Assembly: GCA_012512265.1 (NCBI GenBank)
Contig: JAAZEM010000079.1
Coordinates: forward strand, 1-64,000
Source: Armatimonadota bacterium
GTDB lineage: Bacteria > Armatimonadota > JAAZEB01
Direction of reading: 5' to 3'
Length of the DNA: 64,000 nucleotides
The notes beneath the pieces were generated by a model. It saw nothing but the letters and a program-made list of their open reading frames with translations. It made no database searches and was not told the DNA's origin. Within the stretch, counting starts at the first letter, position 1, and each line of letters begins with the position of its first letter. This document shows, in pieces, positions 274 through 34,909 of the stretch. Both the position numbers and the translations under genes were made by a program.

Positions 274-1521
274 TCACGAGAGCAAGATCTTGAGCACTTT
301 GCCCTTGCCGGCGCGCAGGATGATGGCACGCACGCCCTCCACCTCGCGGAAATCCTCGGGGGTAAAGATGCGATCCACATCGGTGAGGCGCTCATCCCAG
401 AGGCGTATGCCGCCCTGCTGAAGGAGGCGCCGGGCTTCGCCGCGCGACTTCACCAGACCGCTATCGGCCAGGGCGTTGGTCACTTTCACGCCCTCGGCAA
501 GCTCGGCCTCGGTGAGAGTGAGCGTTGGCACATCCGCTGGAAGCGCCCCTTGTGCGGCAAAGGCAGATTTCGAGTCGCTCTGGGCCTGGCGTGCCGCTTC
601 CTCGCCATGCGCGATCTTCGTGGCTTCATAGGCCAGGCGATGCTGGGCGTCGCGCGGATGCCCCGAGAGAATGCTGGCGATCTCATCGAGCGGCAGGAAG
701 GTGAAGAGCTTCAGGTTGCGCTCCAGGTCCTGGTCGGGCGTGTTGACCCAATACTGGTAGTATTCGAAGGGCGAGGTGCGCTCTGGATCCAGCCACACCC
801 GCATGCCGGTCGAAGTCTTCCCCATCTTCTGGCCGCTGGGATCGAGGAGCAGCGGGAAGGTCATCGCATAGGCCTGCTCACCGAGGACGTACTGGATCAG
901 TTCGACGCCATCGAGGATGTTGCGCCACTGGTCATTTCCACCGATTTGAAGCCGGCACCCCTCATTCTTGTAAAGATAGAGGTAGTCATAGCCCTGCAAG
1001 GTGGAGTAGAGGAACTCCATCAGCGAGAGGTGCTCTTGCCTCTTCAGGCGCTCCTGATAGGTCTCGTGAGTGATCAGCCGGTTGATGCTGAAGTAGCGGG
1101 CGGCGTTCAGCATGTAATCGGAAAGCCGCATGTCGAGCCAGTCGTAGTTGTTGCGCACCACGGCGGGGTTGTCGCCGCTCTCAAAATCGAGCAGCCCGAG
1201 GCGCTGGACCTGCCGGCGCATCGCCTCGCCGTTGGCAGCCACCTGCTCCGGCGTGATGAACTGGCGCGTTTCCGATTTCCCGGTGGGGTCTCCCACGATC
1301 GCCGTGAACCCGCCCAGCAAGAAGATGATCCGATGCCCCGCCTGCTGCAGGTGATGCATCGCCATCAAAGAGAGGAGATGCCCGATATGCAGGGACGAGC
1401 CGGTAGGGTCAAAGCCCTCATAGAGGGTGGTCCGCCCTGAAAGAAGCTCTTCAACCGCCTTGTCATCGGATGTTTGGGCAATGTAGCCTCGCTCACGCAA
1501 TTTCTGAAAGACGTTGCTCAC
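274..1521 (-). CDS. tyrS: tyrosyl-tRNA synthetase
   Basis: Class I aminoacyl-tRNA synthetase that charges tRNA-Tyr in the cytoplasm. The 415-residue product has the HIGH signature at residues 45-48, the GNDQW substrate-pocket motif and a KMSKS-type loop written KMGKT near residue 230. A C-terminal S4-like RNA-binding domain follows (about 350-415, SRGEARRLLQQGGIRL). The frame stays open further upstream, but the GTG at 1521 gives the usual N-terminus (SNVFQKLRERGYI) and the family's usual length. The 5' leader of about 135 nt shows no recognisable T-box sequence. The next gene leftward is the prepilin, which has its own promoter. Confidence 0.95.
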   Translation of the reverse strand: MSNVFQKLRERGYIAQTSDDKAVEELLSGRTTLYEGFDPTGSSLHIGHLLSLMAMHHLQQAGHRIIFLLGGFTAIVGDPTGKSETRQFITPEQVAANGEAMRRQVQRLGLLDFESGDNPAVVRNNYDWLDMRLSDYMLNAARYFSINRLITHETYQERLKRQEHLSLMEFLYSTLQGYDYLYLYKNEGCRLQIGGNDQWRNILDGVELIQYVLGEQAYAMTFPLLLDPSGQKMGKTSTGMRVWLDPERTSPFEYYQYWVNTPDQDLERNLKLFTFLPLDEIASILSGHPRDAQHRLAYEATKIAHGEEAARQAQSDSKSAFAAQGALPADVPTLTLTEAELAEGVKVTNALADSGLVKSRGEARRLLQQGGIRLWDERLTDVDRIFTPEDFREVEGVRAIILRAGKGKVLKILLS

Positions 1522-1663
1522 AATACGCTCTCCAACCAACGGGAAGCAGTTTCCCGCATCGAAGGGACCGATGCTCGCGGGGCCGCGATCGAGGAAAACA
1601 GTTGTTGCGCAGTCGAGAGGCTCCGGTAGCTCCCGTGGCCTCGCTCCGCGAGCCAGCAGCCAC

Positions 1664-1693
1664 ATTGTAGCATGGGCGGGATGCAATGGTCAA
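1664..1693 (-). promoter_or_regulatory. promoter of tyrS
   Basis: Minus strand: TTGACC at 1688-1693, 18-bp spacer, TACAAT at 1664-1669. The predicted start near 1657 leaves a leader of about 135 nt before the GTG at 1521. The -35 box is only 13 bp from the end of the inverted-repeat element at 1707-1944, so the element forms the DNA immediately upstream of this promoter. Confidence 0.75.
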
Positions 1694-1706
1694 CGCGCAT
1701 GGCGCG

Positions 1707-1944
1707 CTGGGATTCTGACGTAAGGAATCCGAAGCCACGGAGGCAGCGCGCAACCCAGCGCGCGGCGATAAACCACCGCGCTGCTTGCGAGCGAAGCCCT
1801 GCCGGGCTGGGCCGGGGATACTCCCAGATATCTCAAAACGGCGATGGCTGGGAGGGGGAGCTCCGCAGGGGCTTTGCCGGAAAGTAGCGCGGAGCTTCGA
1901 GCTCCGCGCGTGTGGGCGGCCTTCTCCTCATGTCGGAATCCCAG
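1707..1944 (+). mobile_element. MITE-like 238-bp inverted-repeat element, copy A
   Basis: The element runs from CTGGG to CCCAG. Its first and last 20 bp form an imperfect terminal inverted repeat (17 of 20 match). It aligns over its whole length, without indels, with the reverse complement of 34663-34900; hand alignment gives about 30 mismatches (roughly 87% identity). Inside lies a perfect 10-bp hairpin at 1887-1909 with a TCG loop. Only a 5-bp direct repeat (GCGCG, 1702-1706 and 1945-1949) flanks it, so this looks like an older insertion than copy B. It encodes no convincing protein and no transposase. Together with the tyrS promoter it fills most of the gap before the heparinase-like gene. 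Confidence 0.8.
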
Positions 1945-2128
1945 GCGCGGGTCTCGCAGGGGCCATGCCCCGATCCCGGAAGGATCGTGCGGCCCGACAG
2001 GCTGCACCCGGACCATTTGGGGCCGTCCCCTTCATCATGGTATCGATGTCGGCAGGGAACGGGCCTCAAAGGGTTTTTGCCGGTCGCGGCGAATCTCGGG
2101 GGCAAGCACCGGAAAGGAGTGGGCTGTG
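1945..2128. other. gene-free leader of the heparinase-like gene
   Basis: Between element A and the heparinase-like ATG no gene is evident. A weak promoter-like pair (TTGGGG and TATCGA, 18 bp apart, around 2017-2047) is visible, but I do not consider it reliable. The segment ends with the GGAAAGGAG ribosome binding site at 2111-2119. Confidence 0.4.
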
Positions 2129-34530: not shown

Positions 34531-34653
34531 AACCGAGGGCAGGGAGGGCAAGCGCGGGTGGGGACCAAATCTGAAGGCGCGCCTCGTGAAGGTGGAAAAA
34601 GCGCACCGCGGCCGGCTCGAAAGGGCAAGCCGACCGCGGCGTCAAGTGGTTTC

Positions 34654-34662
34654 CAGGGTCCG
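34654..34662 (+). repeat. 9-bp target-site duplication, left copy
   Basis: CAGGGTCCG directly abuts the left end of element B. The same 9 bp lie directly after its right end at 34901-34909. Confidence 0.75.
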
Positions 34663-34900
34663 CTGGGATTCCGAGATAAGGAGCAGGCTGCCCGCACGCG
34701 CGGAGCTCGAAGCTCCGTGCTGCTTTCCGGCAAAGCCCTTTCAGGGCTTCCCCTCCCAGCCACCGCCGTTTTGCAACGTCTGGGAGTATCCCCAACCCAG
34801 CCCGGCAGGGCCTCGCTCACAAGCAGCGCGGTGACTTATCGCCGCGCGCCGGGTTGCTCAATGCCTCCGTGGCTTCGGATTCCTTATCTCGGAATCCCAG
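34663..34900 (-). mobile_element. MITE-like 238-bp inverted-repeat element, copy B
   Basis: The terminal 20 bp (34663-34682 and 34881-34900, CTGGGATTCCGAGATAAGGA) are perfect inverted repeats. Exactly 9 bp (CAGGGTCCG) are duplicated on both sides, the mark of a transposition event. Length (238 bp) equals copy A at 1707-1944, in opposite orientation, with about 87% identity and no indels. The inner hairpin of copy A is kept with one mismatch. The right end is 14 bp from the hisG stop codon, so the element could act as the hisG terminator. No transposase is encoded; mobilisation in trans is inferred. Confidence 0.88.
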
Positions 34901-34909
34901 CAGGGTCCG
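34901..34909 (+). repeat. 9-bp target-site duplication, right copy
   Basis: CAGGGTCCG directly follows element B and matches 34654-34662 exactly. It lies between the element and the hisG stop codon. Confidence 0.75.

Follow-up and report, generated by a model that had tools for sequence, protein, structure and literature searches.

A MITE family of an Armatimonadota genome that appears to insert at a fixed distance upstream of sigma70-type promoters

Bacterial insertion sequences are generally thought to target short motifs, replication features, palindromes or attachment sites. As described in two reviews, prokaryotic MITEs such as Correia/CREE, RUP and MITEAba12 share many traits with the family analysed here, being short, non-coding, intergenic and present in high copy, with terminal inverted repeats, target duplications and strong secondary structure, but they differ from it in supplying promoters or IHF sites from inside, or in preferring TA or palindromic targets, and no description was found there of one that inserts a set number of base pairs ahead of promoters already in place (PMC10969869, PMC2229807). 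IS5, which inserts ahead of operons of E. coli, fucAO among them, is similar in that insertion upstream of promoter regions can alter expression; in contrast to the present family, its placement is, so far as the titles and abstracts of two papers indicate, attributed to DNA structure and stress conditions, and no constant spacing from a -35 came to light there (PMC11894529, PMC5493358). The nearest functional parallel, offered by analogy only, is the integration of yeast Ty1 and Ty3 upstream of RNA polymerase III genes, which occurs at a fixed position relative to the transcription start and presumably under the guidance of the transcription machinery (PMC5911963), although these are eukaryotic retrotransposons with an integrase, whereas the case described here concerns a bacterial DNA element and sigma70-type promoters. 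A search of the open-access literature found no bacterial precedent for such targeting; subscription papers were outside its scope, and a precedent may exist. The element itself is a MITE by its tested features, and its targeting appears, within those bounds, to be undescribed for bacteria.

The window, that is, the whole stretch of 64,000 nucleotides that was analysed, belongs to a 5.03-Mb Armatimonadota draft genome of 219 contigs (G000) and contains two copies of the element, A and B (Table 1). An earlier note on this DNA had described them as two 238-bp elements of about 87% identity without indels, with CTGGG...CCCAG ends and terminal inverted repeats, and had placed copy A 13 bp from the tyrS -35 box, all of which holds on re-examination. 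The copies align without gaps at 208/238 identical positions (87.4%), and their likeness ends at the CTGGG/CCCAG termini. The terminal inverted repeat of copy B is perfect over 20 bp, the ends of copy A agree at 17 of the first 20 positions, and a consensus scan confirms the 13 bp between the end of copy A and the tyrS -35 (TTGACC-18-TACAAT). Copy A is flanked by tyrS on the minus strand and a heparinase II/III-like gene on the plus strand, copy B by two minus-strand genes, hisG and one with a PAS domain; the true start of tyrS probably lies further in than the TTG codon that opens its reading frame. The single-strand folds of both copies are far more stable than those of shuffled sequences (z -5.5 and -6.1).

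Table 1. Features of the two element copies and their surroundings in the window
Feature	Position	Strand	Remarks
tyrS, tyrosyl-tRNA synthetase	274..1686	-	Pfam tRNA-synt_1b 2.9e-69; ORF opens at TTG
tyrS promoter	1664..1693	-	-35 TTGACC 1693..1688, 18-bp spacer, -10 TACAAT 1669..1664; points away from copy A
Left duplicate remnant of copy A, GCGCG	1702..1706	+	GGTC apparently deleted; inferred from sequence
MITE copy A	1707..1944	+	full-length member; 208/238 vs copy B; at least 40 relatives in genome at 88-92%
9-bp target-site duplicate, right side of copy A, GCGCGGGTC	1945..1953	+	taken as intact; first 5 bases recur on left
TTGACG hexamer, exactly 17 bp outward of copy B end	34640..34645	-	-35-like match only; no good -10 after it
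9-bp duplicate CAGGGTCCG, left of copy B	34654..34662	+	identical to 34901-34909
MITE copy B	34663..34900	-	238 bp, perfect 20-bp terminal inverted repeats
9-bp duplicate CAGGGTCCG, right of copy B	34901..34909	+	identical to 34654-34662
Family end sequence CTGGGATTCCGACATAAGGA			would be expected to bound an autonomous element

Both copies are members of a large family. When copy A was used as a BLAST query against the genome, there were 214 candidates and at least 40 near-full-length copies, located at different sites and 88-92% identical to the query, and the E values of the 40 scored copies (each at or below 3e-82) exclude chance. The central 30-mer occurs 69 times in the 5.03 Mb, and the terminal repeat (CTGRGATTCCGASATAAGGA / CTGRGATTCCGACATAAGGA) is found at 170 sites when up to three mismatches are allowed, with no occurrence of the reversed-pattern control in either search. 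Complete elements that were read numbered 47, and for the 46 with both flanks available the 9-bp target duplication was perfect in 19, matched at 8/9 positions in nine and at 7/9 in four, so that 32/46 reach a match of at least 7/9, compared with 0.6% of mismatched flank pairs. Shorter derivatives of 84, 108, 110, 179 and 188 bp retain the ends and have the targets common to the family; one of them, the 84-bp form at contig C76, has a perfect target duplication, indicating that the element ends suffice for movement. The element passes four tests for a MITE, with its length of 238 bp that leaves no transposase ORF possible, its terminal inverted repeats, its target duplications and its dispersed copies, whereas for an autonomous partner with the same ends there are only the incomplete elements of G001 described below, and the classification of these repeats as a non-autonomous mobile family is thereby supported. 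Such a family, abundant in this genome, had been proposed in the earlier note, with many copies bearing short target duplications as the check and, as the refuting outcome, a lack of further copies together with sharing of both loci at orthologous sites; the counts of central segments, terminal repeats and 9-bp duplications bear the proposal out, and the refuting outcome was not seen, the tyrS promoter of a relative (G002) being without the element.

The position of these insertions was analysed by reading the flanks outward from the element ends, a promoter being defined as a sigma70-type -35/-10 consensus match and not as a mapped start. In a first set an outward promoter (at least 9/12 positions) lay within 120 bp in 34/92 flanks, against 0.85 in shuffles and three in the inward direction. 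The same definition applied to an enlarged set identified 55 promoter-bearing ends among 154 distinct ones, and their -35 offsets are sharply concentrated, with 30 at 17, nine at 16 and two at 18 bp (41 at 16-18). Strict -10 hexamers, scored independently of the -35, peak correspondingly at offsets 39-41 (37/55). When TTGAC alone is scored (at least 4/5), 42/147 ends have it at offset 17, as against about 1-3 at most other offsets, the 147 being those left after seven secondary terminal-repeat hits were dropped; of the 56 ends with a -35-like match at offset 16-18, 40 have a spacer of 17 or 18 bp. Among complete elements, 31/47 have a promoter on exactly one side with its -35 at 15-18 (modally 17), while control offsets give 0-4/47. 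The layout, read outward, is element, 9-bp duplicate, 8 bp, -35, 17-18 bp and -10, and by usual promoter numbering the junction falls at about -53, where the region contacted by RNA polymerase has its upstream limit. On sequence evidence, then, insertion occurs at a fixed distance from the -35 and -10 hexamers. The rule is not universal, since in about one third of complete copies no promoter can be recognised where one would be expected, and a few copies lie at offsets 9-14. Copy B belongs to the former, having the -35-like hexamer at exactly the expected distance without a good -10. An ORF of at least 70 aa begins within 260 bp of all 45 promoters considered in this respect (45/45), which is weak evidence in GC-rich DNA.

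Copy A is one instance of the rule, a point overlooked by the earlier note, since its 13 bp equal the 17 bp expected minus an apparent 4-bp deletion in the left target duplicate (GCGCG versus GCGCGGGTC). The same-family relative G002, whose TyrS is 86% identical, has a tyrS promoter that agrees in both hexamers and in its spacer but is not preceded by an element, from which it follows that the insertion in the window lineage left the tyrS promoter in place.

A mechanism in which the MITE was amplified in trans by a transposase that inserts about 17 bp upstream of the sigma70-type -35 is considered probable, and is held with good if incomplete confidence. A transposase acting in trans in this Armatimonadota lineage would cut a 9-bp staggered target, and one end of the element would land upstream of the -35 by about 17 bp, made up of the 9-bp duplication and a further 8 bp, and about 53 bp upstream of the transcription start, a position at which insertion would leave the core promoter whole. 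The transposase, or a complex of transposase and element ends, may recognise the promoter-bound RNA polymerase holoenzyme through either the alpha C-terminal domain or sigma region 4. It would then insert immediately beyond the footprint of the polymerase, at the site of least harm. That the promoter-bound sigma70 holoenzyme is the targeting factor, which would make it the bacterial counterpart of Ty targeting, is an inference in which recruitment has not been shown, and it is put forward with the arguments for accepting and for doubting it about evenly balanced.

The foremost alternative is a transposase that merely reads a TTGAC motif at a fixed distance, with promoters being hit by virtue of their TTGACA and of the purging of genic insertions. 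Promoters with 17- and 18-bp spacers both occur mainly at offset 17, so that the offset is anchored to the -35 and not to the -10; this fits motif reading, but anchoring to the -35 is equally allowed if the promoter complex is recognised. Some 10-15 ends with a -35-like hexamer at the right place and no -10 also speak for the motif. However, an exact -35 is followed by a -10 in 28/34 cases (82%) at targets and in only 7/61 (11%) of TTGAC sites in the window, and with a match of at least 4/5 the difference grows to 40/56 (71%) against 13/1308 (1%), whereas clearly fewer -10 hexamers would be expected of a motif reader even if only intergenic sites survived. This contrast speaks for the promoter being recognised as a whole, with the RNA polymerase holoenzyme as the simplest inferred means, and leaves motif reading a possible but rather unlikely account.

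Much less can be said for an ordinary MITE with weak target choice, whose position upstream of promoters would be a residue of selection. Copies diverge by a median of 4.4% from the consensus and 8.4% pairwise, and their private mutations are spread evenly along the element (variance/mean 1.13 over 14-bp bins), which marks the copies as neutrally decaying DNA and not as RNA genes under conservation. Such decay is compatible with an ordinary MITE, as is the intergenic location usual for MITEs according to one review (PMC10969869). The offset histogram nevertheless contradicts this explanation: a peak one to three bases wide, with 41/55 promoter-bearing ends at 16-18 bp, cannot be produced by selection, which is excluded as the main cause because an insertion further upstream would be equally harmless. 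It is accordingly regarded as very improbable. Fainter still is the case for conserved structured RNA genes or regulatory RNA leaders in place of mobile DNA, for despite the very stable predicted fold, and despite the fact that an Rfam search in which no family covers the element cannot by itself exclude an undescribed RNA, it is opposed by 9-bp duplications at unrelated sites, by internally deleted derivatives that still moved, by evenly spread private mutations that show no depletion in the predicted stems (72 over the 180 paired positions, 13 over the 58 unpaired ones), by outward promoters driving transcription away from the element and by its absence from the G002 tyrS site, the fold being explained by the inverted arms with nothing to indicate selection on an RNA.

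Returning to insertion guided by promoters, the family suggests a bacterial transposon that finds them with near base-pair precision. Landing at a fixed spot upstream of promoters would constitute a new targeting mode, and RNA-polymerase-guided transposition would become testable in bacteria. Insertion at the promoter edge would also explain how some 70-100 copies accumulated at little cost, each of them pointing to a promoter in a phylum of which little is known, and the transposase, once reconstituted, could be used for promoter mapping or promoter tagging.

The identity of that transposase is only partly indicated. The earlier note had predicted a transposase gene with matching terminal repeats, and support for this comes from G001 (JACQGM01), an Armatimonadetes groundwater MAG of a sister genus in the same family as the window genome, in which the identical 20-bp terminal repeat occurs on longer and otherwise different elements that have a coding tail (...ELSILPGMRLREVPPEVGTREQVFRRYGLDPPTW...) at one end; most of them are broken at contig ends, as is usual for multicopy insertion sequences, and no complete transposase was recovered from them, so the prediction stands for the repeats and a coding segment alone. 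Five of eight such ends in G001 lie 16-17 bp from a promoter, for example TTGACA-17-TATGAT, and since these ends obey the same offset, the rule is a property of the transposition system and not of this MITE only. The coding tail has a homologue in G032, where it forms the tail of a multicopy element (L114-L119) bounded by CTGGGATTGTATCATAAG. In these more distant elements the rule is not evident, one of seven ends fitting it (TTTACA-18-TATCAT, offset 16). An 836-bp copy in G032 (L119) looks like an internally deleted autonomous element. The coding tail matches no Pfam or NCBIfam model, and no relatives of it were found in plasmids, phages or viral contigs.

Among 291 Armatimonadota genomes, real sites of the terminal repeat occur only in the family of the window genome, scattered matches with 1-2 mismatches elsewhere being at control level, and no copy of the MITE was found in plasmids. 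Nine matches of the terminal repeat in viral contigs all fall in a single phage coding region, where no second end accompanies them, and were set aside as chance. Elements of the IS4 family (the IS10/IS50 kind) have ends beginning CTGA/CTGG and 9-bp target duplications, to which the CTGRG ends and 9-bp duplications of the present family are similar. This likeness suggests an IS4-like enzyme, as a lead only and without establishing the class. Unlike what an IS4-family element would bring, no match to DDE_Tnp_1 (PF01609) was found in the window genome; genes of this type are present in G001, G002 and G032, none of them bounded by matching element ends. Draft bins frequently lack insertion sequences that occur in many copies.

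Several further observations concern the structure and distribution of the copies. Promoters lie beside the right-hand (CCTTCTCCTTAT) end in 31 cases and beside the left-hand end in 14, a hint that the transposition complex meets the promoter in a preferred orientation. In one subfamily (L036, L038, L047, L048, L059) the central segment is flipped relative to both arms, apparently through exchange between inverted GCGCTGCTT repeats, and the existence of several such copies implies that the inverted form was also amplified. A left-arm hairpin, at about positions 60-70 of the element, varies between GATAAATC and GCTAAAAGC in a few copies (L054 and others), the paired change keeping the stem. At two loci, L053 (C60:30780) and L178 (C142:29848), elements are paired back to back and a second, truncated terminal repeat stands a few bases off, as if one element had inserted at the edge of the other. 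Many contigs of the window genome (C45, C75, C88, C89, C140, C191 and others) terminate within MITE copies; the repeat therefore fragments the assembly, and copy counts are lower bounds. A contig of a MAG labelled 'Pelotomaculum sp. DTU098' (LFSA01000122.1, positions 1-206, L095) likewise ends in a MITE copy, and its flank and 9-bp duplicate (ATCCAGCGA) are the same as those at C24:35701 (L019) of the window genome, so that it looks like a misbinned fragment of the same or a very close Armatimonadota.
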